Positions 19,541-52,210 of a stretch of 64,000 bases of DNA are shown here, in pieces; position 1 is the stretch's first letter, and each line of letters opens with the position of its first letter. The position numbers and the translations under genes are program-made. Source of the stretch: Isoetes taiwanensis (lineage: Eukaryota > Streptophyta > Lycopodiopsida > Isoetales > Isoetaceae); contig JAJEKV010000110.1 of NCBI GenBank assembly GCA_021234155.1, positions 3,006,338 to 3,070,337 on the forward strand. The letters are read 5' to 3'. The notes under the pieces are model-generated. The model made no database searches. It saw only the letters and a program-made list of their open reading frames with translations, and was not told where the DNA came from.

Positions 19541-20685
19541 AAAACTGACAAACTTGGTTATAATATATAAAATCTATATAACTTTATTTAGCATAGATGA
19601 ACGACTGAGATGCATGGGGCAGATTAACGGCCAAGATCGTGATCTCCGCCCTCACATCCTATTGGCCCAAAGTTTTTCGAACATTTGAAGGGATTTTTTC
19701 TAATCGGTATTGGCGCCTTCCGATGCCTTTGGTGCCTTTCGCTTCCTTTGCCGCCAAGGCAGCCTCCCTGTTCCGATCATATTGCAACCTTGATTTCTAG
19801 CCCTTTCTTCCAGCGATTCTAATCCCTCTTCTTCCAGCGATTCTCTGTTCTATTGAGTTCCTCGATTCTATTTGTATAACTCTGTTCAAATCCCTCTTCT
19901 TCCAGCGATTTCTTCTGTTCTATTGAGTTCCTCTGTTCTATTTGTATAACTCTGTGCAAATATGCGAAATGCTTGATCTTCAGAACGGATTTGCCTTTTC
20001 CCCAGTAAAAATCTTGGCTTCTAAGATTATTCCATAACGCATGGCTCTTCATGTGCTATCTTTGCAAAAGCTGAGCGTCCAGACTGCAGCTACATTTCGG
20101 TAAAAGTTTTGAAAGTTTGCTTGAGGATATGGGTTGTCTATTTATCTTTAGCTCCATATACAACATCAAGATCTTCTTCTCAGCATAATATTGGTTTTGC
20201 AGGTTGTTCCAATGCAGGTTTAAGCAGCTTAGCGAGGTTGGAATCGCTTTCGTTGTAGCATAGTTGAGGGCCTGAGGGGGATTCTCCAAATAATCTCCAA
20301 CACCCAAACGAATTTTCTGTTTTTCCGGTTTTTATTTATCTTTTTTGCTTTATTTTTCTAACCCGAGTTTGTTTTTATTTTGTTACAGGTATTGTATCTT
20401 GTTGAATCTTTTAAAGAAGACATCCCAACTATATAACAGATAAACGTGTTGGCAGTGCCACCGCATCTCAGATAGCCCTTCCCTGGTATCAGATTATCTC
20501 TTTCTGTTATATATATTAATAAGCTAATTTGATAACATGCATCCTTGATGAGAATGAGACTGTCATGGTACATATCCTTCCAACGAATCTTTGAGTGAGA
20601 CATGTCATTAAATATATAAAAAATGTATCATGAGCTTTTGTTCATATGCTTTAGCAAGTATCAGATATATCACAACAAGAGAATG
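19541..20685. other. Intergenic sequence, 68-71-bp direct duplication
   Basis: Copies at 19823-19890 and 19891-19961 share CCCTCTTCTTCCAGCGATT and TGTTCTATTGAGTTCCTC. The pyrimidine-rich composition and the promoter-like upstream region could be the 5' leader of a gene, but no downstream reading frame was found. Confidence 0.45.
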
Positions 20686-20689
20686 GTCA

Positions 20690-21135
20690 TTTAGCAACGT
20701 GGGCTTGCGACGTTCCTGCGACGTGACGTCGCAATTGACGTGACCATGCGACGTCAATGCGGCGTCCGTCGGCGGAACGCATCATGCGGCGGTCTTCGCG
20801 ACGTCGACACTTCGTGACTGGCGGTCGGTGTCACGCGCCGGTGGATGTCGGTGCCAAGTGGACGACAGTTGCCACATTTGCGACGTCACGTCGCATGCGA
20901 CATCGCGTCACTTGGTCTATCGCGCCCGAGGTGATTTGGCTGGCCGGGTGGGCGGCAGTGTCACGCCATGTGGATGTCTGCGGCGTGGCGTCGCATGCGG
21001 CGTGGCGTGACATTTGAAGAAGCGGATGACATGTCGATGCGTATTTGCCGCGTGTCTTGCCAAAGTCGTAGGTGACCTAGAAGGTGGCCAGATTGACAAT
21101 ACGTCGCGTCGCGGCATTATCGGCAACGTCAAAAC
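20690..21135. repeat. CpG-rich segment with TGCGACGTnACGTCGCA palindromes
   Basis: The segment is much richer in CpG than its surroundings and contains many CGACGT and GCGTGGCGT motifs. Two 17-nt near-perfect palindromes share the sequence TGCGACGT(G/C)ACGTCGCA, at 20717-20733 and 20879-20895. It carries no recognisable protein. It may be the end region of a DNA transposon. Confidence 0.55.
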
Positions 21136-21172
21136 TCATTTCTTAGTTGGGTGAACATGTGTGGTCTTACGG

Positions 21173-24140
21173 CTCTGAAACTTGCTCCCGGGGCAATGTC
21201 GGCGTCCACGAGTCCATTGGCGAGGCGAATAGTGGTTCGGGGAGGGAGTTAGCCCGTCGGATCCCGGGGCCTTGGGGAGAGGAAATTCGGGGTAGCGGCT
21301 TAGGGGGATTTTAGGGTCTAAAGCTCACGGCGTCAACACCCCCACTCCACGTCAAGACCGCGGCCGCAAGGTCCGTAGAATCGATAAGGAGAGAGCGGCG
21401 AAACATAAACCCCGTGGGTTGCGAGGTTCTAGAAGGGTTTGCATTTTGGGGGCCGAGACTTGGTCTGTTGCACTTGGGACTGGCCAGAGTGCTGCTGGTA
21501 GAAAAGAATCTGAACAAGGGGAACCGGCGGAGCCGGAGTTTGGGCCTGTCCTCCTCCCGATGTGGCAAGTAGAAGTCGGGGGCTTTGCGTGATGGCAAGA
21601 CATTCATAAATTCGCAATTAATGCATTGTATGAAAATAAATTCTGATTTTTGCCGGAATTTGGATTCCTAATTCATCTCCAAAGACACACAGCCCAATTT
21701 TGAAATTTTTGGAGAAGGTCTAGGTCAAAGGGTTAGCATTAGAGCGGTCGGGGCAGCCCGCTGCGGCAACAGCCGTGGCCCCGCCCCCAAGTCAAAGCGA
21801 GGCGGGGACCTTGCGGGGAACCCTCACAAGAGGGGAGAGTCCGGACCCCAAGAGGCGGGATCAAAAAGTTCCCAGGAAGCCCTTCTGGCGGCTCCCAGGG
21901 GAACGCGCTAATGACCACCCTCCCGGAGCGGTTCCCCTATCCGATTTGTTGGATCCTCCGTTCGGGGGCCCCTCTTGGGGAAGGCCCAAAAGATTCCAGA
22001 TCGGATGCGGGAGAACTTGTCAAACTGGGCGGCCCCGAGGTCGGCCTTGTATAAACCGCAGATGTTTTTGTCGTTCGAACACCGGGAGGCTCAGGAATGG
22101 CAAATCGACCCGCCAAATTGTCCGGAATGGCTAAATTACCCTAGGGAGCAAGTTACAAGGTCGGTTTTGCAAAGAAAGAAACACTCACGCCCTCCCGACA
22201 CGGTATCCGCATCCACATCCTAGGCCAATTGACTACGAGTGTGATGGAAGTGAGCTACTTTGGCGCTTCTTGGAGGTCGGGTGGTCTTCTGGCCACGGAA
22301 CTTGGTCCCCAGGGCAATGTCGACGTTCTGAGTCCATTGGCAGAGCCAAATTGCGATTCCGGAGAGAGGAGGTCGCCCGTCCGTCCCCAGGGCCTTGGGG
22401 AGAGGAAATTCTGGGCAAGCAGCTTCTGGGGGGATTTTAGGGTCCGTGTTCTGCCGTCAACACCCCCACTTCACATCAAGTCACGGCGCAAGGTCCCGGC
22501 CGAATCTGACAAGGAGAGGCCCTCCAAAACGTAAACCCTGTGGGTTGCCAGGTTCTAGAAGGGTTTGCGTTTTGAGGGCCGAGACTTGGTCTATTGCACT
22601 TGGGACCTGGCCGAGAATACGGAGCAAGGGGAACTGATGGAACGGAGTTTGGGCATGTCCTCCTCTTGATGTGGCAAGTAAAAGTCGGGGGGCACTTTTG
22701 CAGTGGCAAGACATTCATAAATTCACAATTAATGCATTGTACGAAAATAAATTCTGATTTTTTGCCAGCTGGATTCCTAATTCATCTTCAAAGACCTTGA
22801 CCCAATTTTAGAATTTTTAGGAGAAGGCCCTAGGTCAAAGGGTTAGCATTAGAATGGTCGGGGCAGCCCATTTTGGGGGGCAACAGAGCTGGCACCCTTC
22901 CCCAAGTCAAGCGAGGCCGGGACCTTTGGGGATCCCTCACAAGAGGGGAGAGTCCAGGACCCAAGAGGCGGGATCCAAAAAGTTCGAGGCAGACCCTTCT
23001 GGCGGCGCTCCCAGGGGCTGAGCGCTAATGACCACCCTCACGGAGCCGGTTCCCCTATCCGGCCGTTGGATCCTCCGGATTCGGGGGCCCCTCTTGGGAA
23101 GGCCCAAAAGATTCCAGATCGGTCAGGAGAAGTTGTCAAACCGCGGCGCCCCGAGGTGCGACCTTGTATAAACCGCAGTTGTTTTGTCGTTCGGGACACA
23201 GGGAGGCTCGGAATGGCAAATCGACCTTGCCAAATCGTCCGGAATGGCGAAATTACCCTAGGGAGCAAGTTACAAGGTCGGTTTTGCAAAAGAAAGAAAC
23301 ACTCACGCCCTCCACGACAGTATCCTGCATCCACATCCTAGGCCAATTGACTACGAGTGTGATGGAAGTGAGCTACTTTGGCGCTTCTTGGAGGTCGGGC
23401 GGTCTTCTGGCTACGGAACTTGCTCCCCAGGGCAATGTCGACGTCCTGAGTCCATTGGCAGAGACGAATCGCGGTTCCGGGGAGGGAGATGTCCTGCGTC
23501 TGGGTCCCGGGGCCTTGGGGGAGGAAATTAGGGGGCAAGAACTTTAGGGGGATTTTAGGGTCCATGCTCTGGCGTCAACACCCCCACTCCACGTCAAGTC
23601 ACGGCGCAAGGTCCCGGCCGAATCTGATAAGGAGAGGGCCTCCGAAACGTAAACCCTGTGGGTTGCCAGGTTCTAGAAGGGTTTGCGTTTTGGGGGCCGA
23701 GACTTGGTCTGTTGCAGTTGGGACCTGGCCGAGAAGCTGCAGCCGAGAATACGAACAAGGGGGAACCGGCGGAGCGGAGTTTGGGCCTGTCCTCCTCCCG
23801 ATGTGGCAAGTAGAAGTCGGGGCTTTTTGCAGTGGCAAGACATTCATAAATTCGCAATTAATGCATTGTACGAAAATAAATTCTGATTTTTTGCGGTTGG
23901 ATTCCTAATTCATCTCCGACACACAACCCAATTTTGAAATTTTAGGAGAAGGTCTAGGTCAAAGGGTTAGCATTAGAGCGGTCGGGGCAGCCCGTTCGGG
24001 CAACCAGAGCTGGCACCCCGCCCCCAAGTCAAACGAGGCCGGGGACCTTGCGGGGAACCCTCACAAGAGGGGAGAGTCCGGACCCCAAGAGGCGGGATCC
24101 AAAAAAGTTCCCGAGGCAGCCCTTCCTGGCAGCGCTCCCC
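21173..24140 (-). repeat. GC-rich satellite, about 1.11-kb monomer, orientation A
   Basis: About 2.7 monomers are arranged head to tail. The landmark TTCATAAATT falls at 21603, 22714 and 23843, giving periods of 1111 and 1129 bp. Monomers include a conserved AT-rich block (GCAATTAATGCATTGTA) in otherwise GC-rich sequence, and a TATAAACC motif. Open frames shift between monomers, so coding is unlikely. Confidence 0.92.
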
Positions 24141-27100
24141 TGCAACAGACCAAGTCTCGGCCCTCAAAACGCAAACCCTTCTAGAACACGGCAGCCCACG
24201 GGGGTTTCACGTTTGAGGCCCTCTCCTTGTCCGATTCGGTAGGGACCTTCGTGACTTGGCGTGGAGTGGGGGTGTTGGCCTTGAGCACGGACCCTAAAAT
24301 CCCCCCGGAAGCTGCTTGCCCCGAATTTCCTCTCCCCAAGGCCCTGGGGACGGACGGGCGACTTCCCCTCTCCGGAATCGCGATTTGGCTCTGCCAATGG
24401 ACTCAGAACGTCGACATTGCCTTGGGGACCAACTTTCGTGGCCAGAACACCACCCGACCTCCAAGAAGCACCAAAGTAGCTCACTTCCATCACACTCATA
24501 GTCAATTGGCGCAGGATGTGGATGCGGGATATTGTCGTGGAGGGCGTGAGTGTTTCTTTCTTTTGCAAAACCGACCTTGTAACTTGCTCTCTAGGGTAAT
24601 TTCGCCATTCCGGACGATTTGGCAGGGTCGATTTGCCATTCCGGAGCCTCCCCGGTGCCTGAATGACAAAACACTGCGGTTTACCTCGGGGACCTCGGGG
24701 CCCGGTTTGACAAGTTCTCCCGGACCCGATCTGGAATCTTTTGGGCCTTCGAAGAGGGGCCCTTGAGCGGAGGATCAGCGGTCGGATAGGGGCCCGGGCT
24801 CGGGGAGGGTGGTCATTAGCGTGCGGCCCGGGGAGGCCGGGGAAGGGCTGCCTCGGGAACTTTTGGATCCAGCCTCTTGGGGTCAGGACTCTCCCCTCTT
24901 GTGAGGGATCCCGCAAGGTCCTGGCCTCGTTTCACTTGGGGAAGGGTGCGGCTCGGTTGCCACCAGCGGGCTGCCCCGACCATTCTAATGCTAACCCTTT
25001 GACCTAGGCCTTCTCCGAAAATTTCGAAAATTGGGCTGTGTGCTGGAGATGAATTAGGAATCCAGCTGGCAAAAAATCAGAATTTATTTTCGTACAATGC
25101 ATTAATTGTGAATTTATGAATGTCTTGCCACTGCAAAAGCGCCCCCCGACTTCTACTTGCCACATCGGGAGGAGGACAGGCCCAAACTCCGTTCCGTCAG
25201 TTCCCCTTGCTCCGTATTCTCGGCTGCAGCCACTCGGCCAGGTCCCAAGTGCAACAGACCAAGTCTCGGGCCTCAAAACGCAAACCCTTCTAGAACCTGG
25301 CAACCCACAGGGTTTACGTTTCGGAGGCCCTCACCCTCTCCTTGTCAGATTCGGCCGGGACCTTGCGCCGTGACTTGACGTGGAGTGGGGGTGCTTGCCC
25401 CGAATTTCCTCTCCCCAAGGCCCTGGGGACGGACGGGCGACTTCCCCTCTCCGGAATCGCGATTTGGCTCTGCCAATGGACTCAGAACGTCGACATTGCC
25501 TTGGGGACCAACTTTCGTGGCCAGAACACCACCCGACCTCCAAGAAGCGCCAAAGTAGCTCACTTCCATCACACTCGTAGTCAATTGGCGCAGGATGTGG
25601 ATGCGGGATACTGTCGTGGAGGGCGTGAGTGTTTCTTTCTTTTGCAAAACCGACCTTGTAACTTGCTCTCTAGGGTAATTTCGCCATTCCGGACGATTTG
25701 GCAGGGTCGATTTGCCATTCCGGAGCCTCCCCGGTGCCTGAATGACAAAACACTGCGGTTTATACAAGGCCGACCTCAGGACGCCCCGCGGTTTGACAAG
25801 TTCTCCCGGACCGATCTGGAATCTTTTGGGCCTTCCCGAAGAGGGGCCCTTGAACGGAGGATCCAACGGTCGGATAGGGGAACCGGGCTCCAGGAGGGTG
25901 GTCATTAGCGTGCAGCCCCCCGGGGGAGCGCTGCCAGGAAGGGCTGCCTCGGGAACTTTTTTGGATCCCGCCTCTTGGGGTCCGGACTCTCCCCTCTTGT
26001 GAGGGATCCCTGCAAGGTCCTGGCCTCGTTTGACTTGGGGAAGGGTGCGGCTCGGTTGCCACAGCAGCGGGCTGCCCGACCATTCTAATGCTAACCCTTT
26101 GACCTAGGCCTTCTCGAAAATTTGAAAATTGGGCTGTGTCTTTGGAGATGAATTAGGAATCCGGTGGCAAAAATCAGAATTTATTTTTTCGTACAATGCA
26201 TTAATTGTGAATTTATGAATGTCTTGCCCTTTGCAAAAGCGCCCCCAGACTTCTACTTGCCACATCGGGGAGGAAGACAGGCCCAAACTCCGTTCCGTCG
26301 GTTCCCCTTGCTCCGTATTCTCATTTGCGGCCACTTTCGGCCCGAGTCCCAAGTGCAGCAGACCAAGTCTCGGCCCTCAAAGCGCAAACCCTTCTAGAAC
26401 ACGGCAGCCCACGGGGTTTATGTTTGAGGCCCTCTCCTTGTCGGTCGGTAGGGACCTTGCGTGACTTGGCGTGGAGTGGGGGTGTTGATGCGAGCATGGA
26501 CCCTAAAATCCCCGAAGCTGCTTGCCCCAAATTTCCTCTCCCAAGGCCACGGGGGCCGGGGCCGGGCGACCTCCCTCTCTCGGGAATCGCGATTTGGCTC
26601 GCCAATGGACTCGAAGCGTCGACATTGCCTTGGGGACCAAGTTCCGTGGCGAGAAGACCACCCGACCTCAAGCGCCAAAGTAGCTCACTTCCATCACACT
26701 CGTAGTCAATTGGCGCTAGGATGTGGATGCGGGATCTTGTCGTGGAGGCGTGAGTGTTTCTTTCTTTTGCAAAACCGACCTTGTAACTTGCTCCCTAGGG
26801 TAATTTAGCCATTAGGACGATTTGGCGGGGGTCGATTTGCCATTAGGAACCTCCCCGGTGCCCGAGCGTCAAAACAACTGCGGTTTATACAAGGCCGACC
26901 TCGGGGATGCCCAGCGGTTTGACAACTTCTCGGGGCCGGTCTGGAATCTTTTGGGCCTTCGAAGAGGGGCCCTGAGCGGAGGATCAGCGGTCGGATAGGG
27001 GAACCAGGGCTCGGGGAGGGTGGTCATTAGCGTCGCGCCCAGGGGGGCGGCTGCCCGGGAAGGGCTGCCTCGGGAACTTTTTTGGATCCCGCCTCTTGGG

Positions 27101-30100
27101 GTCCAGACTCTCCCCTCTTGTGAGGGATCCCTGCAAGGTCCTGGCCTCGTTTGACTTGGGGAAGGGTGCCAGCTCGGTTGCCCTGCAACGGGCTGCCCCG
27201 ACCGTTCTAATGTTAACCCTTTGACCTAGGTCTTCTCTGAAAATTTCAAAAATTGGGCTGTGTGCTAGAGATGAATTAGGAATCCATCTGGCAAAAAATC
27301 AGAATTTATTTTCGTACAATGCATTAATTGTGAATTTATGAATGTCTTGCCACTGCAAAAGCGCCCCCCGACTTCTACTTGCCACATCGGGAGGAGGACA
27401 GGCCCAAACTCCGTTCCGTCAGTTCCCCTTGCTCCGTATTCTCGGCTGCAGCCACTCGGCCAGGTCCCAAGTGCAACAGACCAAGTCTCGGGCCTCAAAA
27501 CGCAAACCCTTCTAGAACACGGCAGCCCACCCGGGGTTTACGTTTGGAGGCCCTCTCCTTGTCGGTCGGTAGGGACCTTGCGCGTGACTTGGCGTGGAGT
27601 GGGGGTGTTGGCCTTGAGCACGGACCCTAAAATCCCAGGGGCTGCTTGCCCGAATTTCCTCTCCCCAAGGCCACAGGGGCCGGGCGAGGCGACTTCCCCT
27701 CTCAGGAATCAGCGATTTGGCTCGCCAATGGACTCGAGCGTCGACATTGCCTTGGGGACCAACTTCGTGGGCAGAACACCACCCGACCTCAAGAAGCGCC
27801 AAAGTAGCTCACTTCCATCACACTCGTAGTCAATTGGCCTAGGATGTGGATGCGGGATCTTGTCGTGGAGGCGTGTGAGTGTTTCTTTCTTTTGCAAAAC
27901 CGACCTTGTAACTTGCTCCCTAGGGTAATTTAAGCCATTCAGGACGATTTGGCGGTCGATTTGCCATTCGGAGCCTCCCGGTGCGAGCGACAAAACAACT
28001 GCGGTTTATACAAAGGAGACCTCGGGATGCCCAGCGGTTTGACAAGTTCTCGGGGCCGTCTGCGGAATCTTTTGGGCCTTCGAAGAGGGGCCTGAGCGGA
28101 GGATCAGCGGTCGGATAGGGAGCAGGGCTCGGGGAGGGTGGTCATTAGCGTGCGCCCCAGGGGGCGGCTGCCCGGGGAAGGGCTGCCTCGGGGAACTTTT
28201 TGGATCCGCCTCTTGGGGTCGGACTCTCCCCTCTTGTGAGGGATCCCTGCAAGGTCTGGCCTCGTTTGACTTGGGGAAGGGTGCCGGCTTCGGTTGCCTG
28301 CAGCGGGCTGCCCGACCGATTCTAATGTTAACCCTTTGACCTAGGCCTTCTCAGAAAATTTCAAAAAAATTGGGCTGTGTGCTAGAGATGAATTAGGAAT
28401 CCATCGGCAAAAATCAGAATTTATTTTAGGTACAATGCATTAATTGTGAATTTATGAATGTCTTGCCCTTTGCAAAAAGCCCCAGACTTCTACTTGCCAC
28501 ATCGGGGAGGAGGACGGGCCCAAACTCCGTTTCGTCGGTTCCCTTGCTCCGTATTCTCGGCTGCGGCCACTTCGGCCGGGTCCCAAGTGCAGCAGACCAA
28601 GTCTCGGGCCTCAAAGCGCCAAACCCTTCTAGAACACGGCAACCCACCGGGGTTTTCACGTTTGGAGGCCCTCTCCTTGTCGGTCGGTAGGGACCTTGCG
28701 CCGTGACTTGGCGTGGAGTGGGGGTGTTGGCCTTGAGCACGGACCCTAAAATCCCGGAAGGCTGCTTGCCCCGAATTTCCTCTCCCCAAGGCCACAGGGG
28801 GCCGGGCCAGGCGACTTCCCCTCTCGGGAATGCGATTTGGCTCTGCCAATGGACTCGAAGCGTCGACATTGCCTTGGGGACCAACTTCGTGTGGCGAACA
28901 CCACCCGACCTCCAAAAGCGCCAAAGTAGCTCACTTCCATCACACTCGTAGTCAATTGGCCTGAGGATGTGGATGCGGGATCTTGTCGTGGGGCGTGAGT
29001 GTTTCTTTCTTTTGCAAAACCGACCTTGTAACTTGCTCTCTAGGGTAATTTAGCCATTCGGACGATTTGGCGGTCGATTTGCCATTAGGAACCTCCCGGT
29101 GCACGAATGACAAAACAACTGCCCGGTTTATACAAGGCCGACCTCGGGGATGCCCAGCGGTTTGACAAGTTCTCGGGGACCGATGCGGAATCTTTTGGGC
29201 CTTCAGAAAGGGGCCCTTGAGCGGAGGATCAGCGGTGGGATAGGGGAACAGGGCTCGGGAGGGTGGTCATTGGCGTGTCGGCCCCGGGGGGCGGCTGCCG
29301 AGGGAAGAAGGGCTGCCTCGGGAACTTTTTGGATCCCGCCTCTTGGGGTCCGGACTCTCCCCTCTTGTGAGGGATCCACTGCAAGGTCGGCCTCGTTTGA
29401 CTTGGGGAAGGGTGCCGGCTTCGGTTGCCACAGCGGGCTGCCCCGACCATTCTAATCTAACCCTTTGACCTAGGCCTTCTCAGAAAATTTCAAAAAATTG
29501 GGCTGTGTCTTTGGAGATGAATTAGGAATCCGGTGGCAAAAATCAGAATTTATTTTCGTACAATGCATTAATTGTGAATTTATGAATGTCTTGCCCTTTG
29601 CAAAAGCCCCGACTTCTACTTGCCACATCGGGAGGAGGACGGGCCCAAACTCCGTTCCGTCAGTTCCCCTTGCTCGTATTCACGGCTGCGACCACTCGGC
29701 CAGGTCCCAAGTGCAGCAGACCAAGTCTACCGGCCCTCAAAGCGCCAAACCCTTCTAGAACACGGCAACCACGGGGGTTTACGTTTGAGGAGGCCCTCTC
29801 CTTGTCGGTCGGCGGGACCTTGCTTGGCGTGACTTGGCGTGGAGTGGGGGTGTTGATGCGAGCATGGACCCTAAAATCCCGGAAGCTGCTTGCCCCAAAT
29901 TTCCTCTCCCCAAGGCCACAGGGGCCCGGGCGAGGCGACCTCCCCTCTCGGAATCGCGATTTGGCTGCGCCAATGGACTCGGAAACGTCGACATTGCCTT
30001 GGGGACCAAGTTCCGTGGCGAAGACCACCCGACCTCAAAAGCGCCAAAGTAGCTCACTTCCATCACACTCGTAGTCAATTGGCCTAGGATGTGGATGCGG

Positions 30101-33100
30101 GATCTTGTCGTGGGGCGTGAGTGTTTCTTTCTTTTGCAAAACCGACCTTGTAACTTGCTCCCTAGGGTAATTTCGCCATTAGGACGATTTGGCGAGTCGA
30201 TTTGCCATTAGGAGCCTCCCGGTGCCGAAGCGACAAAACAACTGCCCGGTTTATACAAGGCCGACCTCGGGGATGCCCAGCGGTTTGACAAGTTCTCTCG
30301 GACGATCTGGAATCTTTTGGGCCTTCGAAGGGGCCCTTGAGCGGAGGATCAGCGGTGGGATAGGGGAGCCGGGGCTCGGGAGGGGTGGTCATTAAGCGTC
30401 GCGACCCGGGGGGCGCTGCCGGGGAAGGGCTGCCTGGGGAACTTTTGGATCCGCCTCTTGGGGTCGGACTCTCCCCTCTTGTGAGGGATCCTGCAAGGTC
30501 TGGCCTCGTTTGACTTGGGGAAGGGTGCGGCTCGGTTGCCACAGCGGGCTGCCCGACCGTTCTAATGCTAACCCTTTGACCTAGGCCTTCTCTGAAAATT
30601 TCAAAAATTGGGCTGTGTGCTAGAGATGAATTAGGAATCCATCTGGCAAAAAATCAGAATTTATTTTCGTACAATGCATTAATTGTGAATTTATGAATGT
30701 CTTGCCCTTTGCAAAGCGCCCCCGACTTCTACTTGCCACATCGGGAGGAGGACAGGCCCAAACTCCGTTCCGTCAGTTCCCCTTGCTCCGTATTCTCGGC
30801 TGCAGCCACTCGGCCAGGTCCCAAGTGCAACAGACCAAGTCTCGGGCCTCAAAACGCAAACCCTTCTAGAACCTGGCAACCCACAGGGTTTACGTTTCGG
30901 AGGCCCTCTCCTTGTCAGATTCGGCCGGGACCTTGCGCCGTGACTTGACGTGGAGTGGGGGTGTTGATGCCAGAGCACGGACCCTAAAATCCCGGGCTGC
31001 TTGCCCCGAATTTCCTCTCCCCAAGGCCACAGGGGCCGGACGAGGCGACCTCCCTCTCGGAATCGCGATTTGGCTCTGCCAATGGACTCGAAGCGTCGAC
31101 ATTGCCTTGGGGACCAAGTTCGTGGCGGAACACCACCCGACCTCAAAGCGCCAAAGTAGCTCACTTCCATCACACTCGTAGTCAATTGGCCTAGGATGTG
31201 GATGCGGGATCTTGTCGTGGAGGGCGTGAGTGTTTCTTTCTTTTGCAAAACCGACCTTGTAACTTGCTCCCTAGGGTAATTTCGCCATTCAGGACGATTT
31301 GGCGGGGTCGATTTGCCATTCGAACCTCCCGGTGCGAAGCGACAAAACAACTACCCGGTTTATACAAAAGTAGACCTCGGGATGCCCAGCGGTTTGACAA
31401 GTTCTCGGACCCGATCACGGAATCTTTTGGGCCTTCGAAGAGGGCCCCCTGAGCGGAGGATCAGCGGTGGGATAGGGAGGCAGGGCTCGGGGAGGGTGGT
31501 CATTGGCGTGCGACCCCAGGGGCGCTGCCGAGGAAGGGCTGCCTCGGGGAACTTTTGGATCCCGCCTCTTGGGGTCGGGACTCTCCCCTCTTGTGAGGGA
31601 TCCCTGCAAGGTCTGGCCTCGTTTGACTTGGGGAAGGGTGCGGCTTCGGTTGCCACAGCGGGCTGCCCCGACCGTTCTAATGCTAACCCTTTGACCTAGG
31701 TCTTCTCTGAAAATTTCAAAAATTGGGCTGTGTGCTAGAGATGAATTAGGAATCCATCTGGCAAAAAATCAGAATTTATTTTCGTACAATGCATTAATTG
31801 TGAATTTATGAATGTCTTGCCACTGCAAAAGCGGCCCCCGACTTCTACTTGCCACATCGGGGAGGAGGACAGGCCCAAACTCCGTTCCGGTCGGTTCCCC
31901 TTGCTCCGTATTCGGCTTTGCGGCCACTCGGCCGGGTCCCAAGTGCAACAGACCAAGTCTCGGGCCTCAAAGCGCCAAACCCTTCTAGAACACGGCAGCC
32001 CACCGGGGTTTACGTTTTGGAGGCCCTCTCCTTGTCGGTCGGTAGGGACCTTGCAGGTGACTTGGCGTGGAGTGGGGGTGTTGGCCTTGAGCCACGGACC
32101 CTAAAATCCCGGGAAGGCTGCTTGCCCGAATTTCCTCTCCCCAAGGCCACAGGGGCCGGGCCCAGGCGACTTCCCCTCTCCGGAATCGCGATTTGGCTCT
32201 GCCAATGGACTCGAAACGTCGACATTGCCTTGGGGACCAACTTTCGTGGCCAGAACCACCCCGACCTCAAGAAGCGCCAAAGTAGCTCACTTCCATCACA
32301 CTCGTAGTCAATTGGGCCTAGGATGTGGATCGCGGGATCTTGTCGTGGAGGCGTGAGTGTTTCTTTCTTTTGCAAAACCGACCTTGTAACTTGCTCTCTA
32401 GGGTAATTTAGCCATTAGGACGATTTGGCGGGTCGATTTGCCATTAGGAGCCTCCCGGTGCCCGAGCGACAAAACAACTGCCCGGTTTATACAAAGGCCG
32501 ACCTCGGGGATGCCAGCGGTTTGACAAGTTCTCGGGACCCGATCTGGAATCTTTTTTGGGCCTTCGAAGGGGCCCTTGAGCGGAGGATCAGCGGTGGGAT
32601 AGGGGGCAGGGCTCGGGAGGGTGGTCATTAGCGTGCGACCCAGGGGGGGCGGCTGCCGGGAAGGGCTGCCTCGGGAACTTTTGGATCCCGCCTCTTGGGG
32701 TCAGGACTCTCCCCTCTTGTGAGGGATCCACGCAAGGTCTGGCCTCGTTTGACTTGGGGAAGGGTGCCGGCTCGGTTGCCACACAGCGGGCTGCCCGACC
32801 GTTCTAATCTTAACCCTTTGACCTAGGCCTTCTCAGAAAATTTTGAAAATTGGGCTGTGTCTTTGGAGATGAATTAGGAATCCAGGTGGCAAAAAATCAG
32901 AATTTATTTTTCGTACAATGCATTAATTGTGAATTTATGAATGTCTTTGCCCTTTGCCAAAAGCCCCCGACTTCTACTTGCCACATCGGGAGGAGGACAG
33001 GCCCAAACTCCGTTCCGTCAGTTCCCCTTGCTCCGTATTCTCGGCTGCAGCCACTCGGCCAGGTCCCAAGTGCAACAGACCAAGTCTCGGCCCTCAAAAC

Positions 33101-36100
33101 GCAAACCCTTCTAGAACCTGGCAACCCACAGGGTTTACGTTTTGGAGGCCCTCTCCTTGTCGGTCGGCGGGACCTTGCGGCCGTGACTTGGCGTGGAGTG
33201 GGGGTGTTGCCTTGCGAGCACGGACCCTAAAATCCCCGGCTGCTTGCCCCGAATTTCCTCTCCCCAAGGCCCTGGGGACGGACGGGCGACCTCCCCTCTC
33301 CGGAATCGCGATTTGGCTCTGCCAATGGACTCGAAACGTCGACATTGCCTTGGGGACCAAGTTCCGTGGCCAGAAGACCACCCCGACCTCAAAGCGCCAA
33401 AGTAGCTCACTTCCATCACACTCGTAGTCAATTGGCCTAGGATGTGGATGCGGGATCTTGTCGTGGTGGGGCGTGAGTGTTTCTTTCTTTTGCAAAACCG
33501 ACCTTGTAACTTGCTCCCTAGGGTAATTTCGCCATTCAGGACGATTTGGCAAGGTCGATTTGCCATTCCGGAGCCTCCCGGTGCGAATGACAAAACACTG
33601 CGGTTTATACAAGGCCCGACCTCGGGGATGCCCAGCGGTTTGACAAGTTCTCCGGACCGATCACGGAATCTTTTGGGCCTTCAGAAGAGGGGCCCTTGAG
33701 CGGAGGATCAGCGGTCGGATAGGGGAACAGGGCTCGGGAGGGTGGTCATTGGCGTGCGACCCAGGGGGATTTGCCGGGAAGAGGCTGCCTCGGGGAACTT
33801 TTGGATCCGCCTCTTGGGGTCAGGACTCTCCCCTCTTGTGAGGGATCCTGCAAGGTCTGGCCTCGTTTGACTTGGGGAAGGGTGCCATTTCGGTTGCCAC
33901 CAGCGGGCTGCCCGAGCCATTCTAATGCTAACCCTTTGACCTAGGCCTTCTCAGAAAATTTCAAAAATTGGGTTGTGTGCTGGAGATGAATTAGGAATCC
34001 ATCGGCAAAAATCAGAATTTATTTTTCGTACAATGCATTAATTGTGAATTTATGAATGTCTTGCCCTTTGCAAAAGCGCCCCCGACTTCTACTTGCCACA
34101 TCGGGAGGAGGACAGGCCCAAACTCCGTTCCGTCGGTTCCCCTTGCTCCGTATTCTCGGCTGCGACCACTCGGCCCGGTCCCAAGTGCAACAGACCAAGT
34201 CTCGGCCCTCAAAGCGCAAACCCTTCTAGAACACGGCAGCCCACGGGGTTTCGTTTTGGAGGCCCTCTCCTTGTCAGGTCGGGCGGGACCTTGGCGTGAC
34301 TTGGCGTGGAGTGGGGGTGTTGATGCGAGCATGGACCCTAAAATCCCCGGTGCTGCTTGCCCCAAATTTCCTCTCCCCAAGGCCACAGGGGCCGGGGCCG
34401 GGCGACCTCCCCTCTCGGGAATCGCGATTTGGCTCGCCAATGGACTCGAAGCGTCGACATTGCCACAGGGACCAAGTTCCGTGGCGAGAAGACCACCCGA
34501 CCTCAAGAGCGCCAAAGTAGCTCACTTCCATCACACTCGTAGTCAATTGGCCTAGGATGTGGATGCGGGATCTTGTCGTGGGCGTGAGTGTTTCTTTCTT
34601 TTGCAAAACCGACCTTGTAACTTGCTCCCTAGGGTAATTTAGCCATTAGGACGATTTGGCGGTCGATTTGCCATTAGGAGCCTCCCGGTGCGAGCGACAA
34701 AACCTTTTGCGGTTTATACAAAGCCGACCTCGGGATGCCCAGCGGTTTGACAAGTTCTCCGGGACCCGATCACGGAATCTTTTGGGCCTTCGAAAGGGGC
34801 CCCTGAGCGGAGGATCAGCGGTCGGATAGGGGGCAGGGCTCGGGAGGGTGGTCATTAAGCGTGCGACCCCAGGGGGCGCTGCCGGGGAAGGGCTGCCTCG
34901 GGAACTTTTTTGGATCAGCCTCTTGGGGTCGGACTCTCCCCTCTTGTGAGGGATCTGCAAGGTCTGGCCTCGTTTGACTTGGGGAAGGGTGCCGGCTCGG
35001 TTGCCACTGCGGGCTGCCCCGTGGATTCTAATGTTAACCCTTTGACCTAGACCTTCTCAGAAAATTTCAAAATTGGGGCTGTGTGCTGGAGATGAATTAG
35101 GAATCCATCGGCAAAAAAAATCAAATTTATTTTTAGGTACAATGCATTAATTGTGAATTTATGAATGTCTTGCCCTTTGCAAAAGCCCCCAGAGCTTCTA
35201 CTTGCCACATCGGGAGGAGGACAGGCCCAAACTCGTTCCGTCGGTTCCCCTTGCTCCGTATTCACCGGCTGCGACCCTTCTCGGCCAGAGTCCCAAGTGC
35301 AACAGACCAAGTCTCGGGCCCCAAAGCGCCAAACCCTTCTAGAACACGGCAGCCCACGGGGTTTTACGTTTTGGAGGCCCTCTCCTTGTCGGTCGGTAGG
35401 GACCTTGGCAGTGACTTGGCGTGGAGTGGGGTGAGTGTTGGCCTTGAGCCACGGACCCTAAAATCCCGGGCTGCTTGCCCGAATTTCCTCTCCCCAAGGC
35501 CACAGGGGCCGGGCGAGGCGACCTCCCTCTCGGGAATCGCGATTTGGCTACGCCAATGGACTCGGAAGCGTCGACATTGCCACACGGGGACCAAGTTCGT
35601 GGCGAGAAGACCACCCGACCTCCAAGAAGCGCCAAAGTAGCTCACTTCCATCACACTTTCGTAGTCAATTGGCCTAGGATGTGGATCACGGGATCTTGTC
35701 GTGGAGGCGTGAGTGTTTCTTTCTTTTGCAAAACCGACCTTGTAACTTGCTCCCTAGGGTAATTTAGCCATTCGGACGATTTGGCGGTCGATTTGCCATT
35801 AGAACCTCCCGGTGCGAATGACAAAACAACTGCGGTTTTATAAAAGGTAGACCTCGGGGCGCCCAGCGGTTTGACAAGTTCTCGGACCCGTCACGGAATC
35901 TTTTGGGCCTTCGAAGAGGGGCCCTTGAGCGGAGGATCAGCGGTGGGATAGAGGCGGGCTCGGGGGAGGTGGTCATTAGCGTCACGGCCCCGGGGGGCGG
36001 CCCGGGGAAAGGCTGCCTCGGGAACTTTTTGGATCCCGCCTCTTGGGGTCAGGACTCTCCCCTCTTGTGAGGGATCCGCAAGGTCTGGCCTCGTTTGACT

Positions 36101-37678
36101 TGGGGAAGGGTGCGGCTCGGTTGCCACACAGCGGGCTGCCCGGCCATTCTAATCACTAACCCTTTGACCTAGGCCTTCTCAGAAAATTTGAAAATTGGGC
36201 TGTGTGCTGGAGATGAATTAGGAATCCGGTGGCAAAAAATCAGAATTTATTTTAGTACAATGCATTAATTGTGAATTTATGAATGTCTTGCCCTTTAAAA
36301 GCACCCCCAGACTTCTACTTGCCACATCGGGAGGAGGGACGGGCCCAAACTCGGTTTCGTCAGTTCCCCTTGCTCCGTATTCTCGGCTGCGACCTTCTCG
36401 GCGAGTCCCAAGTGCAGCAGACCAAGTCTCGGCCCCTCAAAGCGCCAAACCCTTCTAGAACACAGCAGCCCACGGGGTTTCGTTTTGGAGGCCCTCTCCT
36501 TGTCGGTCGGTAGGGACCTTGGGTGACTTGGCGTGGAGTGGGGGTGTTGATGCCGAGCCATGGACCCTAAAATCCCCGGGCTGCTTGCCCCGAATTTCCT
36601 CTCCCCAAGGCCACGGGGGCCGGGCCGGGCGACCTCCCTCTCGGGAATCGCGATTTGGCTCTGCCAATGGACTCGAAGCGTCGACATTGCCTTGGGGACC
36701 AAGTTCCGTGGCGAAGACCACCCGACCTCCAAGAAGCGCCAAAGTAGCTCACTTCCATCACACTCGTAGTCAATTGGCCTAGGATGTGGATGCGGGATCT
36801 CTTGTCGTGGAGGCGTGAGTGTTTCTTTCTTTTGCAAAAGCCGACCTTGTAACTTGCTCCCTAGGGTAATACCGCCATTCGGACGATTTGGCGAGGGGTC
36901 GATTTGCCATTCAGGAACCTCCCGGTGCGAGCGACAAAACAACTGCGGTTTATACAAAGGCCGACCTCGGGGCGCCCGGTTTGACAAGTTCTCGGACCCG
37001 ATCTGGAATCTTTTGGGCCTTCCAGAAGGGGCCTGAGCGGAGGATCAGCGGTGGGATAGGGGCCGGGCTCGGGAGGGTGGTCGCGTGTGACCCCCAGGGG
37101 GCTGCCCGGGAAGAGGCTGCCTCGGGAACTTTTTGGATCCGCCTCTTGGGGTCAGGACTCTCCCCTCTTGTGAGGGATCCTGCAAGGTCTGGCCTCGTTT
37201 GACTTGGGGAAGGGTGCGGCTCGGTTGCCACCCAGCGGGCTGCCCGACCGTTCTAATGCTAACCCTTTGACCTAGACCTTCTCCGAAAATTTGAAAATTG
37301 GAACATGTGTCTTTGGAGATGAATTAGGAATCCGGGAAAAAAAAATCAGAATTTATTTTAAGTACAATGCATTAATTGCGAATTTATGAATGTCTTGCCT
37401 TGCAAAAGCCCCAAACTTCTACTTGCCACATCGGAGGGAGGGCAGGCCCAAACTGCGCTCCGTCCGGTTTCCCTTGCTCCGTATTCTCTGCGGCTTCCGG
37501 CCGGGTCCCAAGTGCAGCAGACCAAGTCTCAGCCCCCAAAACGCAAACCCTTCTAGAACACGGCAGCCCACGGGGTTTTACGTTTTGGAGGCCCTCTCCT
37601 TGTCGGTCGAGGCGGGACCTTGCCGTGACTTGGCCGTGGGTGGGGTGTTGGCCTTGGAACCGCGAACCCTAAAATCCC
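24141..37678 (+). repeat. GC-rich satellite, about 1.11-kb monomer, orientation B
   Basis: The same monomer is inverted, about 12 copies. The landmark AATTTATGAA falls at 25111, 26210, 27333, 28449, 29577, 30688, 31803, 32932, 34047, 35156, 36274 and 37381, giving periods of 1099-1129 bp. Copies differ mainly by 1-3-base changes at GC-rich sites. One monomer (near 25390) lacks about 34 bp. The longest open frames (24164-24916 and 30691-31350, minus) lie in different registers and show no known domain. Confidence 0.93.
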
Positions 37679-38860
37679 GAGATTCTAATTTCGTGGCGTC
37701 TGTGCAATGCGACACCTTAGTGACCATGTCACGGTCAATTTCTCGAAAGGAACTAGGATATACACCATTTTATGTTGTCTTTATCTAAGCCATGCAGAAT
37801 AATATTTTGGCGTTCCACCCTTATCTCCATCTTCAATACTTGACATACTTGGCTTTATTTGTCATCATCTAGGCAAGAATACTGCTCCATCCTTTTCTTT
37901 CTCTACTCTTTGGTTTTGATTGTCATCAACTATCTCGACATTATCTAAGCCATGAGTTAAATTAGGAGCTCTAACCCTACCCCAGAGACGGACCCCATCG
38001 AGGCATAACCAATTAAGGTGATATGTCCAGGTGAGTTACACATTCAATTTGAGCATAGGATCTTGATTTTGCAATGCTATGTAGATGAGTGGCTTAATCA
38101 TATGAAAAGGAGATCTGCTATTCCACTTCAATCCAAGACCCGAGCCTATCTAACAATAACATCCTTAGATTGAATATGAGAATATAAGTATAAGAAATGC
38201 TAGAACAAAGATAACTGATTATAAAGATCAAAACTTGAACAAAATGCTCAAATATTCTCAAATACTTATCAATAATGGCTCAAATACTATGATTAGAGTA
38301 CAAATATCCATAAAAAATGTCGAGAAGATCGTGAGGTTGCCTCAAAGGTGGAAGAGGAGCGACCTCACACTCAATGTCGTCAGCACATCAATAATGCCTT
38401 CAAAGAAATTCAGCTCCACGCACATAATTTGCCAACTTCTCTCCAAATACCCGGCGGTGCGATATTATCGGGGCAAGCTATTGTATTCATCTCTTCTTCT
38501 TCAACAGCTCTAGCTGGTCTTCTATTTCCTCTAATGCTTCATCTTAGCGCATAGTTCTTGGAGGATTTCATTGGCTTGGCGGCACGATCAACCATACTCA
38601 CGAAACGTCTTTCAATGGCGTTATTAGGTATAGTAAGTGAGGCATCTGCATCCTCAATATTGAAGAGCTACAAATAAAGAGGCGATAATGAACAAAGTGA
38701 TTGAGAAAGGAAATACAAAATGTAACCTTAGATCGCTCAAAGGCGCTGGGATGCTTGCTAGAACTAGATGTGAAGCTGGCCAAGCTCTTGTTGCCTCAAC
38801 CAAGAATATTTGGCGGCTAGGGTTTTGGATGTCGGGGTTTTGCTTCAATTGAACCTTTGT
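37679..38860. other. Intergenic sequence after the satellite
   Basis: No gene is established. At about 37742-37785 (+) the reading ISRKELGYTPFYVVF resembles the HxSxGxTPFxVVYG end of a Ty3/gypsy integrase core, but it is too short to be sure. The rest is AT-rich with unremarkable short frames. Confidence 0.35.
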
Positions 38861-38877
38861 AGGTACAATTAACTTTT

Positions 38878-38990
38878 TTTGAATGGCGTCGATATTGGCC
38901 GTTTTGCCGGTATATCCGTCGATCATCGGCGTTTATCTGAAAGCGTCGATTCTCGGCGTCGCGGCGTCGATTATCGGCGTTGCTCTGTAA
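38878..38990. repeat. Cluster of GCGTCGATnnTCGGCGT repeats, left
   Basis: GGCGTCGATATTGGCCG, CCGTCGATCATCGGCGTT, GCGTCGATTCTCGGCGTC and GCGTCGATTATCGGCGTT follow one another within about 110 bp. The motif is near-palindromic (CGTCGAT/ATCGRCG). The same motif recurs at 43830-44190 next to a CACTA terminus, so this may be the opposite subterminal region of that element. Confidence 0.6.
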
Positions 38991-39299
38991 TATTTATTCA
39001 GCGCAGGAGGAAAACCCGTGACCTATTCGAGCAAGCAAAAACTTGGAGGAGCATTTATTCCGCGATTTTTTGAAGCCCATCGGTCTTGAAGCCCATTTCC
39101 TTTGCCAAGCAAGCTCGGAAAGGTATGTGCTTGGATCAACCATCTCTTTTTGAATCCATGCTTGTTTTTTTTTTTCCAAGTTTTAGGGATTTATGTTCTT
39201 GTTGTTTGTTCTTCCCATTCTCATCAATCTTGGCCTCTTTTAGTTAATTCTTCCATCCCCTTTCCATTTTGATCCCTTCAATGTTTCTATCCTCATATT

Positions 39300-39565
39300 T
39301 GCCCATGCCTTTTTTTTTATTCTTGCTTCTTTGCTCTTCAAATTCTTGCTTCTTCTTCCTTCTTCCAAATCCCCTCCCCTCTTCTATATTCTTTTCAAGA
39401 TTCTTACATCCCCTTTCTCTCATCATCTCTTCCTCTATTTCTTCTTCTTCTTCTATTTCTTCTTCATCATCCTCCTCCACTTTTCTTCTTCTTCCTCCTC
39501 CTCCTCCATTCTTCTTCTTGAATTCTTTTCACCATTAGTTTTTTCCTCTTCAATTCTTCCTCTAT
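39300..39565. repeat. Polypyrimidine (CTT/CCT) tract
   Basis: The plus strand is almost pure C/T for about 260 bp, with runs of CTTCTTCTTC and CCTCCTCCTCC. The apparent Phe/Leu/Pro-rich and Glu-rich frames on the two strands are products of this composition, not genes. Confidence 0.85.
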
Positions 39566-40020
39566 TATTTTCTTGCCGTCGATGAAGGGCTGACTTCCTT
39601 TATTTTTGTTTTTCTTTTTAATGCAAGGTCGATGAGCGACCTTGCAATGTTGTTCTTACTTAGTTTAATATTTTTTTTCTAACCATTGGATGTCTTGTTT
39701 TGCATGCATAACTCCTAACAAAATCGTTGCTTTTACGGACGACAACGAACACCTTGTACTTATTCAGGGTAGAAATTTATTTTTAATACGTTTAAGTTTA
39801 ATGCTTTGTTTAGGTTTAAAAAACTTGGGGAGACTTGGGCAAGGGGCATGAGTCGACTCCACCTTGAAGTGGAGGGGACTAAGTGCTTGGTCCAAAGCTC
39901 ACCTACTACTCTTGTAAATTTATTTGCTAATGTATTTAGGTTAATCCACGAATCCTTTTTTTCTTTGTATTTTTTTTTTATGCATTAGATAAAAATTAGT
40001 TTAATTTGGTTTGTAGGTAT

Positions 40021-41574
40021 GGCCCCAAATGTGAAGACACAAATGCTTACTGAGATTAGGCGTGTGCTCATAAATGAGATATGTGCCAGCGAAAGTCGAA
40101 ACGGTTGAGGCCCTTAAACTGGCGGTCAGCGTCTCTCGACCATTTTGTAAAGGCATGTCAAAAAGTGTCAAAATGAGTTAGCATCAAAATGGCCAGGCCA
40201 GGAGGAAATGTTGACATCTCTTCTGAACACACATGTAAAGTCAATGCTTGGAAACCCCATGGTCGAACTGGAGACATGTTTGAACCATTCAGTGCAGCTT
40301 CAAAGTCCCAATGCAAAGGCTCGTGTCGAGGAATGGGTAGCTAGTTGGAATTCCTCCAAAAAGCGGCGATGCGAGATCACAAGAATGTCATTAAGGATCT
40401 CAATGCGTCGGTTGGAGATAATAAAAGCGCCTTGCATCAAGGGAAGCTCTCTAGTGGAGCAGGGCCTAGCATGCCCCACTTTTCTTTGGAAAATCACATG
40501 AAGACATCAATCTTCGTTGAACCCATACCCATAGAGGCCGTAGAGCTGATGCGCCTGATTGAAGAGAGATCAACTCATAGCACATATCAAATCAAGATCA
40601 TTGGAACACAACACTTCCAAGATGATGAGTTCTATGCTGGATGGGTTTATAAAGCCACAGGGAGATAGGAGCATGTCATATGAGAAGGCCCAAAAATATA
40701 TCGCTTAAGAGTCCACATCACGCAGCTACACCCATTGGACTTCCTTATGAAGTTGCTAGCTCTAAATTTGAGGGTACCCCATAGGGCCAATGGTGATTCT
40801 ACCATTTATGAATGGAGAAACACTTGCACACTTGTTTGACCATTTACCTCGGGACCTTTGCGTTATAGGAGATGGTCAAAGCGATAGCCACCCGACAAAA
40901 AGGCCTCCTAAACACATATACACTAAAGTTGGGGCTCGAATGAGAGTTGTATATCGGTATGTTCGAGATATAGCTCTTGCCCTAGCGGGAAGGTGTCATT
41001 TGAGATCCACAAGGGCCCTTTACTCACACAAAGCTCAATTGCAAGGGGTCAAATTACATTTTGACTGACAAAGTACACAAATGTTTGGGTGGCAATTGGT
41101 GATTGGGATGGCGCATTACATTATTATTGCAAGAGCGTCGTCCCATGTTGAAAGGCAATACTCACTTCGGATGGAATGCGCCGAAATATCCTTGATGCGA
41201 GAAAAGTGTCTTTGAAATCGAGGATGATGATCGTGTTTGGGGGCGAAATTCATGATGTCTACATGCATTGGGATACATCTATGACATGCTCCTTGATTTT
41301 GTGCAAGCTATGCGACCCCGAATGGAGTGGTTTAACAATGTCGACAATGGCCAATACATCAATCAACACATATATGTACCAGCAGCGTCTTGACAAGTTG
41401 GAGGGCAAAACAAGAATGATGGCTCATCCAGCACGCGTGTTCACAACGATGCAAAGCACGAAGTTATTTGAAGCCTTACAAAGTGTTGGAATATCTTCCA
41501 CCATGGTTGTGAGACAAAGGCGACATATAAGTGCATGGATGCCTTGGAGATGTCAAAGTTGTTTTCTGACATAA
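40021..41574 (+). pseudogene. Unidentified broken coding region, possibly transposon-encoded
   Basis: The stretch starts with an ATG reading MAPNVKTQMLTEIRRVLINE and includes open frames 40345-40668 (with FLQKAAMRDHKNVIKDLNAS) and 41176-41574. Between them are stops in all frames of the apparent chain. It has protein-like composition but no domain that I can name. Its position between two clusters of GCGTCGATnnTCGGCGT repeats makes a role as cargo or accessory gene of a CACTA-like element possible, but the typical TNP2/TNPD signatures were not seen. Confidence 0.3.
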
Positions 41575-43630
41575 AGAATGAATTAGACATTGTATACAGC
41601 AATCTGCAGAGCGTTGTGTAACTAGTAAATATTTAAAGACATTTGTAAAGTCGAGCCATGTTAATATCGTCAAACTTTTTATTACATCAATATAATAAAA
41701 CAAAGCTTATTAAATGTGCAATGAAGTTTCTATGTAATTAAGGTTTTCTTAATTTCTTAATATATCATTCAACACACTCAATATTAATAACTTAGGGGTA
41801 CTTGTGCATATTCCAGCAATCATGAGCTTTAGTCAGCGTGACCTACTATGGGTTGCCAACCCTGTTACTTTGGTGGATTGACAACATTCTTGGCGACAAC
41901 AAACCCCGTTCTGCCCACGTTTGGGAAGTACTTGGTTGGATAATCGCCACCGCCACCTAAACCATTTTCTCGGTTGGTATGCATTATTAGCTAGGTTAAC
42001 ATTTAGGTTAGTAGTTTATTTCTAATATATTCTAATAAATATTTTTTCTAAATGTAGGGTGCATATCCACCATTGTTCTTTTCTTAACGTGTGCTTGGGT
42101 TGCACCCTTATATTTTAGGGCCTGTTTGGGTACCAACCCCAGGCCTACTGCCATGCCCAGAAGAATAAAGGCGAGGGCTCATCTAGGGCGAGGATCCACG
42201 ATCTCAGTATGGATCTCCGTCATATCGCGTCTGATCTCGGCTGGGGGAAAGCACACCACCCATCCGGCGGGTCAGTTTAAGCGTCAGCGTTGTCGCTGAA
42301 GGGTCGCCCGCGGTGCAAAGGGCTGGCCGCCCAACTAGAGCCGAGGTTCCTTTCGACATAGCTTGCCTACTTCTGGCGAATGTCGAGGGACCTCGGGGAA
42401 CCTCCCGGAAGGAGGCGTCGGTAATGAGCATCGGCGGCAAAATAAAGTCCCAGGCTTTCCTCTTGACTTCGACTAGAGGCTTCTGGGACTTGAGCGTGCA
42501 CACCACTTCTTATATGAGTGAGTTCGTCTTCAATTCGTAATTTATGGTTCACTAACACTTATTCATATGTATTAACTTTGAAGTTGATTTTCTTTGTTGA
42601 GTGGCCGAACACAAGTTTCATTTGGGCACTACTAAGATGGAGGAATTTCATAGGAGGTGAATGCCCTCACGAACAACATTGTTACCAGCGTCCACAAGGG
42701 TACTTGGAGGGATGACTCATTTGATCTGAGAGAAAATAGAACTAAGGAATAGGCTAGAGGAGGAATATCCACGAGCTCAAAGCAGGAGATGTCCACGAAG
42801 GCGTGATGGAGGAGCTAGTCAACATGTTAAAGCCATGAGGTATTACCTTCCCTTGTTCTTAATCATTGATCAATATCGTACTCATGTTTGATTTCACGTT
42901 ATGCGACCACGACCCGAAGAAGAAAGGCGATAAAACATCTTGATATGGAAAATGTCAGATAGAAAGGCGACTTCGACCCCATTGGATGAGACGAAGCGTC
43001 ATTAAGTGATTAGTACATCTCTAATGCTTAGCACAAGTCGTAGGCGTATATCTAGATTAATATAGGGACTAAGAACTTGTGTTGTGTGCGGTCTTGCAGG
43101 AGGCCAACATATTGTCGTGAGAGGATTAAGCTGACAGCTCTCGGCCCGACTTTGGCCATTGGTCTGACAGGCGTTATGCTACCAACATATTTGGATCAAT
43201 GGTGTTTATAGTAATTTTAGCAGGCTTATTGCTTAAAGCGGCCCGGCGTGACTAGAGATGATGTGAAAGGGGCTAATCGGTTGGGCAATCGCAGTGACCA
43301 TCAGAGATAAACTCTTGGTGTAGGGTGATGTATGTATTATTCACTACATAATTCTTTGCAAATTATTTAGCTTTAAGCTTAGTGATATGTTTTCATGGCG
43401 AGGATGACGAGGAAGGCGAGGAGGTCATCTGGTGGCCTTGCAGCTTGAACTCTCGATTTTTATGTTATGTCTAGCTATTCTCCAACTCAAGTGTGGTGAA
43501 TAGACTTTCGTACGTTTTGTAGTTCAATGATACATTAACTTTTGTTGAATATGATTTTGAAGTATATTTTCTCACTACTTTTATATATTTTGATTACGTA
43601 ATGCGCCTCGATACCTAAGTCTATTTTAAG
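41575..43630. other. Intergenic sequence
   Basis: Short frames occur on both strands (for example 42204-42506, minus) without recognisable domains. No RNA gene is seen. Confidence 0.45.
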
Positions 43631-43635
43631 AACGA

Positions 43636-43728
43636 CCTTTAATTGATTAATTTAGATTTTAATTGATTAATGTAGATTTTAGTTGTTTTTAATTAGATTT
43701 TAATTGATTAATTTAAATTTCACCAAAT
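43636..43728. repeat. AT-rich short tandem repeat
   Basis: About four imperfect units of TTTTAATTGATTAATTTAGA follow one another. Confidence 0.75.
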
Positions 43729-43829
43729 ATTTTATTTGATAAATAAAATTCGAAGTCTTTACAACTTAATATGTCTTAAATTGCACCCATTAAATTTTTT
43801 AATTTTTTGAATTTTTTTTTTAATATTTA

Positions 43830-44238
43830 GAGGCGTCGTTGCTCGGCGTCCACCATCGCTGCGCCCGTCACGCATGCCCGAGCGTCGATCGCCGGCGTCG
43901 GCGTATGTGCGCCACCGTAGCACGCACGCCGCCGCTGAACCTCGGTGGCACGCCACCATGTAGCCGCCGGTGAGCGTCGATCATCGGCGTTCGATCAACG
44001 ACTTCCGGTAACATCACCGTGGCATCGCCACGTCCGCGACCCGATCGATGATCGGCGATTCATCGTCGACCATCGGCGCCGCTATTCGACCGCGATATTT
44101 TGCCGGTTTTGGTCGGCGTCGGCGGTCGTCGGTCGATATAGAGGGTTCACGTCGACCTTTAGCGTCGATGATCGGCGTTGCATCGGCGTTCAAAGATCGA
44201 TATAGGCGTCGAAAAAGGCTCAACGTTTTTGTAGTGTT
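43830..44238. mobile_element. CACTA transposon terminus with subterminal repeats
   Basis: The sequence ends TTTTTGTAGTG at 44238, the reverse complement of CACTACAAAAA, the terminal inverted repeat of plant CACTA (En/Spm) elements. Inside it, about ten copies of GCGTCGATnATCGGCG-like motifs form a subterminal array, as is usual for this superfamily where transposase binds repeated sites. The boundary with a gypsy remnant at 44239 supports a real element end. The other terminus is not certain. A matching motif cluster at 38878-38990 is the best candidate, giving an element of about 5.4 kb. Confidence 0.65.
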
Positions 44239-52196: not shown

Positions 52197-52198
52197 TC

Positions 52199-52210
52199 TG
52201 GTATCGAGCA
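52199..52210 (+). promoter_or_regulatory. Primer binding site, altered tRNA-iMet complement
   Basis: TGGTATCGAGCA starts two bases after the LTR. The usual plant site is TGGTATCAGAGC, and here CAG has become CG. The site in the gag-only element in this window is intact, so this difference is either old decay or a sequence error. Confidence 0.8.

Follow-up and report, generated by a model that had tools for sequence, protein, structure and literature searches.

A GC-rich Tandem Array of a 1.1-kb Unit in Isoetes taiwanensis, Most Likely an Ordinary Lineage-specific Satellite with a Possible Mobile-element Link

The window analyzed here, a 64-kb stretch of DNA from Isoetes taiwanensis, contains a block of repeats of 16.5 kb. 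This block raises the questions of what kind of repeat it is, from what sequence it arose, and whether the differences among its copies are true mutations. The most likely answer to the first question is an ordinary lineage-specific satellite with a possible link to a mobile element. The array itself is real and known in kind, with a plausible CACTA border.

Organization of the Array

A unit of ~1,115 bp is repeated ~15 times in tandem between about 21,160 and 37,680 (~21,159–37,685 by the unit profile and ~21,161–37,681 by edge alignment; Table 1). Fourteen copies are full-length, with sizes of 1,100–1,127 bp and a mean of 1,115 bp; 12 of these are on the minus strand and two are on the plus strand. 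The partial copies, two on the plus strand and one on the minus strand, are situated at the edges and at the orientation switch. This bears out the sequence-only reading, which had described about 15 monomers over 16.5 kb with a period of 1.11 kb. The 12 minus copies are 88.1–94.5% identical to each other, the plus copies are 83.1–89.3% identical to the minus copies, and the two full plus copies share 86.0% identity. The head-to-tail arrangement and high mutual identity that characterize a satellite are thus present in the 14 full copies (83.1–94.5% pairwise). The array is missing from the TRF list because the longest period was set at 500. Elsewhere in the window, there is a degenerate 19-bp tandem array (AACATGCCACGTAGGCTCC) at 14585–16100 with 79.4 copies and a GC content of 55% in its main part, as well as a strongly skewed, CCA-rich simple-repeat tract at 47296–47703.

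Table 1. Coordinates of the array and associated features within the 64-kb window
Feature	Position	Strand	Evidence
CACTA-like terminus CACAACAAGAGA, followed by CpG-dense stretch with GCGACGT/ACGTCGC in both orientations	20671..21158	+	Motif counts, CpG observed/expected ratio
Array, plus part: partial, two full and partial copy	21160..24140	+	Unit profile matches, edge alignment
Degenerate inverted repeat of ~270 bp, copy L2	23209..23477		Opposite-strand self-match E 3.2e-8; score 44 versus maximum 33 in 300 shuffles
Orientation switch, from unit coordinate ~440 (+) to ~16 (-)	24140..24141		Edge alignment, sequence
Array, minus part: 12 full copies, then a partial one at right edge	24141..37681	-	Unit profile matches, edge alignment
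Inverted repeat, minus-oriented copy R09	33301..33573		E 1.9e-7; score 42 versus maximum 32 in 300 shuffles
Right flank (short), marginally similar to left flank in direct orientation	37682..37745		Score 14 versus shuffle mean 9.6; 2.3% of 1,000 shuffles

The two parts of the array have GC fractions of 0.556 and 0.566, compared with 0.424 and 0.404 in the flanks (55–57% versus 40–42%), in agreement with the earlier observation that the array lies far above its surroundings. A sustained GC skew of 0.28–0.35 was observed separately over ~5 kb at 52001–57000, where it overlaps two repeat pairs of ~75% identity.

The change of orientation at about 24140 that the sequence-only reading had noted was recovered by edge alignment at ~24,140/24,141. 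In unit coordinates, the array starts at ~822 on the left and stops at ~967 on the right, and the switch passes from ~440 to ~16. Inverting either part leaves the array discontinuous in these coordinates. They therefore lend no support to one clean inversion and call for a deletion, a further event or a faulty join. The switch could represent a rearrangement within the array with loss of sequence, or it could have been introduced during assembly. That two pieces of array were joined in this way, with no counterpart in the chromosome, is a serious possibility although it falls short of an even chance, and it is compatible with every other reading considered below. The unit coordinates favor it in giving no clean inversion of one array, and the array consensus may be poor. 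Against it, the unit coordinates of the two sides differ where they meet, which excludes a simple hairpin artifact, and the plus copies diverge from the minus copies more than the minus copies do among themselves, as a real older edge would.

Coding Capacity and Conserved Parts of the Unit

There are 60 stop-to-stop open reading frames of at least 120 amino acids, 38 of which overlap the array. A coding array was considered and rejected, as the six of these 38 frames that were scanned gave no Pfam match at E up to 0.1, and the unit is apparently non-coding. Two exact strings from the unit had no match in IMG/VR or GTDB contigs, and one copy had none among plasmids and phages, all of these being collections without plant genomes. 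Six strings had no match in a literature set that does not cover plant genomes.

Each monomer had been said to contain a conserved AT-rich patch and a motif. The AT-rich string ATTCATAAATT is indeed found in all 15 copies that hold this position (three plus and 12 minus), but TATAAACC is exact in only 12 of 14 copies, and the patch is not specially conserved. The 60-base bins at 121–240 that cover the patch have variation values of 0.104 and 0.108, within a range of 0.036–0.195 for all bins, and exceed 10 and 12 other bins, respectively. The longest near-invariant runs are located at consensus positions 687–732 (43% GC) and 765–809 (49% GC). The AT-rich patch is therefore not the best-kept part of the unit, and neither the patch nor TATAAACC carries special weight.

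Each of the three copies tested contains a degenerate inverted repeat of ~270 bp at consensus positions ~630–905, a feature absent from the earlier description. In seven copies, a search with the unit profile gives an opposite-strand self-match at this location (E below 0.01). The self-complement scores of the three copies (44, 42, and 42) are higher than those of all 300 shuffles of each, and the score of the consensus (36) was matched in one of 500 shuffles. No internal direct dimer was found in the unit consensus. The inverted repeat may be what remains of a fold-back or MITE-like insertion. An RNA hairpin formed by this repeat was also considered and rejected, because the two copies that were folded gave z values of -0.56 (67 of 200 shuffles did as well) and -2.10 (3 of 100) and hence no clear RNA structure.

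Flanking Sequences Resembling a CACTA Transposon

The left edge of the array is abutted by a motif-dense stretch of ~490 bp with GCGACGT in direct and inverted orientation. This stretch (20,671–21,158) contains five GCGACGT and three ACGTCGC, neither of which occurs anywhere else in the window. When up to three mismatches are allowed, GCGACGTNACGTCGC has five matches (0.52 expected), four of which fall within the same stretch. The CpG observed/expected ratio is 1.57 for 20,690–21,160. At the outer end of the stretch, CACAACAAGAGA is two mismatches away from CACTACAAGAAA, which we take to be the consensus of a CACTA terminus. Terminus-type matches with up to three mismatches number 80, versus 66 expected by chance, so that the terminus on its own is not significant, and it is the position of CACAACAAGAGA that speaks for it.

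The left terminus at 20,671 is degenerate. No right-hand CACTA end was found for the array, and the GCGACGT/ACGTCGC pattern of the left flank is not seen on the right. A candidate right end at 37.7 kb was rejected, as its inverted likeness to the left ranked 98th of 1,864 windows and was reached in 7.05% of 2,000 shuffles and, in a second test, in 9.5% of 1,000. The likeness of the right flank to the left one at about 37.69–37.74 kb is in direct orientation and marginal (Table 1). No transposase (tnp2/Transposase_21) was matched by Pfam in the six frames scanned of the 38 in the array; a non-autonomous copy would be without one.

A second CACTA-like element lies at 38887–44236. Here, CGTCGATNNTCGGCG with up to two mismatches clusters at 38,887–38,979 and 43,834–44,177, with 15 of 16 rows for the window in these two clusters and 0.4 expected, some sites being counted on both strands. 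The element has a CACTACAAAAAC-type end on the minus strand at 44,225–44,236, and five open reading frames tested from it gave no Pfam match. A single element reaching from the array to this second one (38.9–44.2 kb) was rejected, because the subterminal motif differs.

With moderate confidence, we link the array to a CACTA element, because of the motif-dense left flank with its CACTA-like terminus, published arrays inside CACTA elements, and a published satellite seeded by a CACTA fragment. Among the origins left open by the sequence-only reading, a lineage-specific satellite stands as the best reading, possibly with a link to a mobile element. The unit would have its source either at a CACTA (En/Spm)-type DNA transposon or within one, and the left end of that element would still adjoin the array. 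The lineage-specific satellite would then have grown, probably by unequal crossing-over or copy amplification, into a passive repeat that has no visible encoded function and is probably methylated.

Copy-to-copy Variation

Any two of the 14 full copies differ on average by 113 substitutions and 36 indel events. Per base, the variation is 0.197 at CG (0.082 outside), 0.230 at CAG/CTG (0.086 outside) and 0.184 at CCG/CGG (0.083 outside), values that none of 1,118 rotations reach. For CCGG/CTGG/CCAG it is 0.235 compared with 0.088 outside (p 0.0009). Control words are not enriched (GC followed by A/T, p 0.07; GGA/TCC/CCT/AGG, p 0.86; CCC/GGG, p 0.30; CAA/TTG/CAC/GTG, p 0.99). The CG/CHG excess is seen with this per-base rotation test and is not clear in a cruder count of 107 variable clusters, where CG is present in 0.598 versus 0.565 expected and CHG in 0.561 versus 0.522.

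The 345 changes at CG sites comprise 120 transitions, 145 transversions, and 80 gaps, and at CHG sites 84 of 209 changes are transitions. Elsewhere, the share of transitions is 136 of 344 at the remaining C/G positions and 230 of 440 at A/T. Because transitions are few outside CG and CHG as well, the odd spectrum characterizes the array as a whole and is not special to methylatable sites. An LTR-like pair is located nearby at 8,907–9,635 and 11,286–12,014 (729 bp, 97.3% identical, no gap), with a Retrotrans_gag fragment at 10,494–10,970 between its two members. Transitions account for 16 of the 20 differences between these members. Another seven duplicated pairs of the window have 19 gap openings to 112 mismatches, compared with 36 to 113 in the array.

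At some sites in the minus-oriented part, short words replace each other. The string GATCTGGAATC reads CTGG (6), CACGG (4) or TGCGG (2), GAACCTGGCA reads CTGG (3), ACGG (9) or ACAG (1), and CCGG is changed to AGG, CGG or CAGG at two sites. These swaps, which recur at separate sites (for example CTGG to CACGG), were chosen by eye and in the minus-oriented part alone; in an automatic count, 17 of 294 distinct edits occur at two or more unit positions, several of them being homopolymer changes. Two or three different repeated strings are found in 9 of 30 windows of forty columns, in 1 of 20 windows of 60 columns and in 1 of 15 windows of 80 columns. Across the first 80 columns, one string is shared by 4 of the 14 copies, and in several copies some variants are apparently linked over ~100 bp, as judged by eye.

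Sequencing Error or True Mutation

The concentration of variation at CG and CHG, together with its richness in transversions and small indels, which differs from the LTR-like pair, points to consensus error linked to methylation. Such error may account for much of the difference among copies, some of the tests being mixed, and we consider it fairly probable that consensus error is the main cause. According to PMC6591954, the consensus errors of bacterial nanopore assemblies are concentrated in Dcm-methylated motifs, and PMC10687267 describes a nanopore accuracy lowered by modifications for which there was no training. By analogy with these bacterial results, CHG methylation in a plant could cause errors of a like kind. 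Several observations argue against this account. Transitions are few outside CG and CHG also, and the crude cluster count has almost no CG/CHG excess. Error alone predicts one shared string per window, yet two or three are held by 9 of the 30 forty-column windows, and variants look linked by eye over ~100 bp. Indels by themselves do not prove error, since the seven other duplicated pairs carry gap openings too.

The alternative is a plain satellite without a tie to CACTA, the differences being true mutations, some of them at methylated cytosines and spread by gene conversion. Variation at CG and CHG is expected of methylated DNA, and the strings common to several copies and the multi-string windows could be conversion tracts or sub-families. 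Deamination, however, leads to transitions, whereas 225 of the 345 CG changes are transversions or gaps, and the nearby LTR-like pair has mostly transitions and zero gaps. We regard this alternative as rather unlikely. The best explanation in our judgment, with a probability somewhat above even, is a satellite amplified at or inside a CACTA-type transposon, with variation that is largely consensus error at methylated CG and CHG. Should error be the main cause, the copies would in truth have diverged by less than the ~9% seen among the minus copies. Errors in methylation context could then mimic satellite sub-families and "conserved" patches in a long-read assembly.

Alternative Identities of the Unit

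The sequence-only reading could not match the monomer to an rDNA spacer, a centromeric satellite or a known element. No Rfam family was found at threshold anywhere in the 64-kb window, and a search of 3,351 bases of the array gave no Rfam match even with E values up to 1 allowed. Accordingly, no rRNA genes were detected between which an intergenic spacer would lie. The unit has no similarity below E 1 to the rest of the window, including the LTR-like pair. Because of this Rfam result, the absence of tRNA according to ARAGORN, the lack of Pfam matches in the six frames scanned and the unlikeness of the unit to other sequence in the window, an rDNA spacer in place is unsupported. An rDNA-derived satellite has a reported precedent, as one is said to be known in tomato; even so, Rfam gave no family for the window or for the array bases searched, the unit is unlike the LTR-like pair and other window sequence, and its derivation from an rDNA spacer or an LTR is very improbable.

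A centromeric, knob or subtelomeric role, of which the last two had been proposed, finds no support here, because the array is 16.5 kb in size, the TTTAGGG-type heptamer is present about once in each unit with single occurrences elsewhere, and a PTR2-family gene is present at 60.0–61.3 kb. This gene, for a PTR2/POT-family transporter, lies in two pieces on the minus strand at 60048–61257. A mobile satellite, in which a 1.1-kb unit with an inverted repeat is carried as CACTA-type cargo and shows true CG/CHG hypervariation through a process other than simple deamination, is very improbable.

Comparison with Known Systems

Satellites with long monomers in plants are in general arranged head-to-tail, with a longer uniform part, a more divergent edge and no coding match. 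The present array resembles them in all of these respects.

Among satellites with a transposon origin, the family CficCl-61-40 was seeded by a CACTA fragment according to PMC7320549, and the present array is similar in that CACTA elements would be tied to the birth of a satellite. The monomer described there is ~40 bp and comes from the tnp2 region, whereas six open reading frames of the unit studied here gave no transposase match.

A further case is that of Chenopodium quinoa, where, according to PMC8978399, 5,550 bp of 171-bp monomers lie inside a CACTA element of 16,523 bp, near its 3′ end. The likeness is one of description. In both cases, a tandem array occurs with CACTA-type terminal and subterminal sequence, and the size is comparable, with ~17 kb here from the left end to the right edge of the array. 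In contrast, the monomer here is ~1,115 bp, and the Chenopodium element has a transposase and nearly complete ends, compared with one degenerate end here. A GC-rich array with a long unit and a possible CACTA border would extend what is known of how transposons and satellites are connected.
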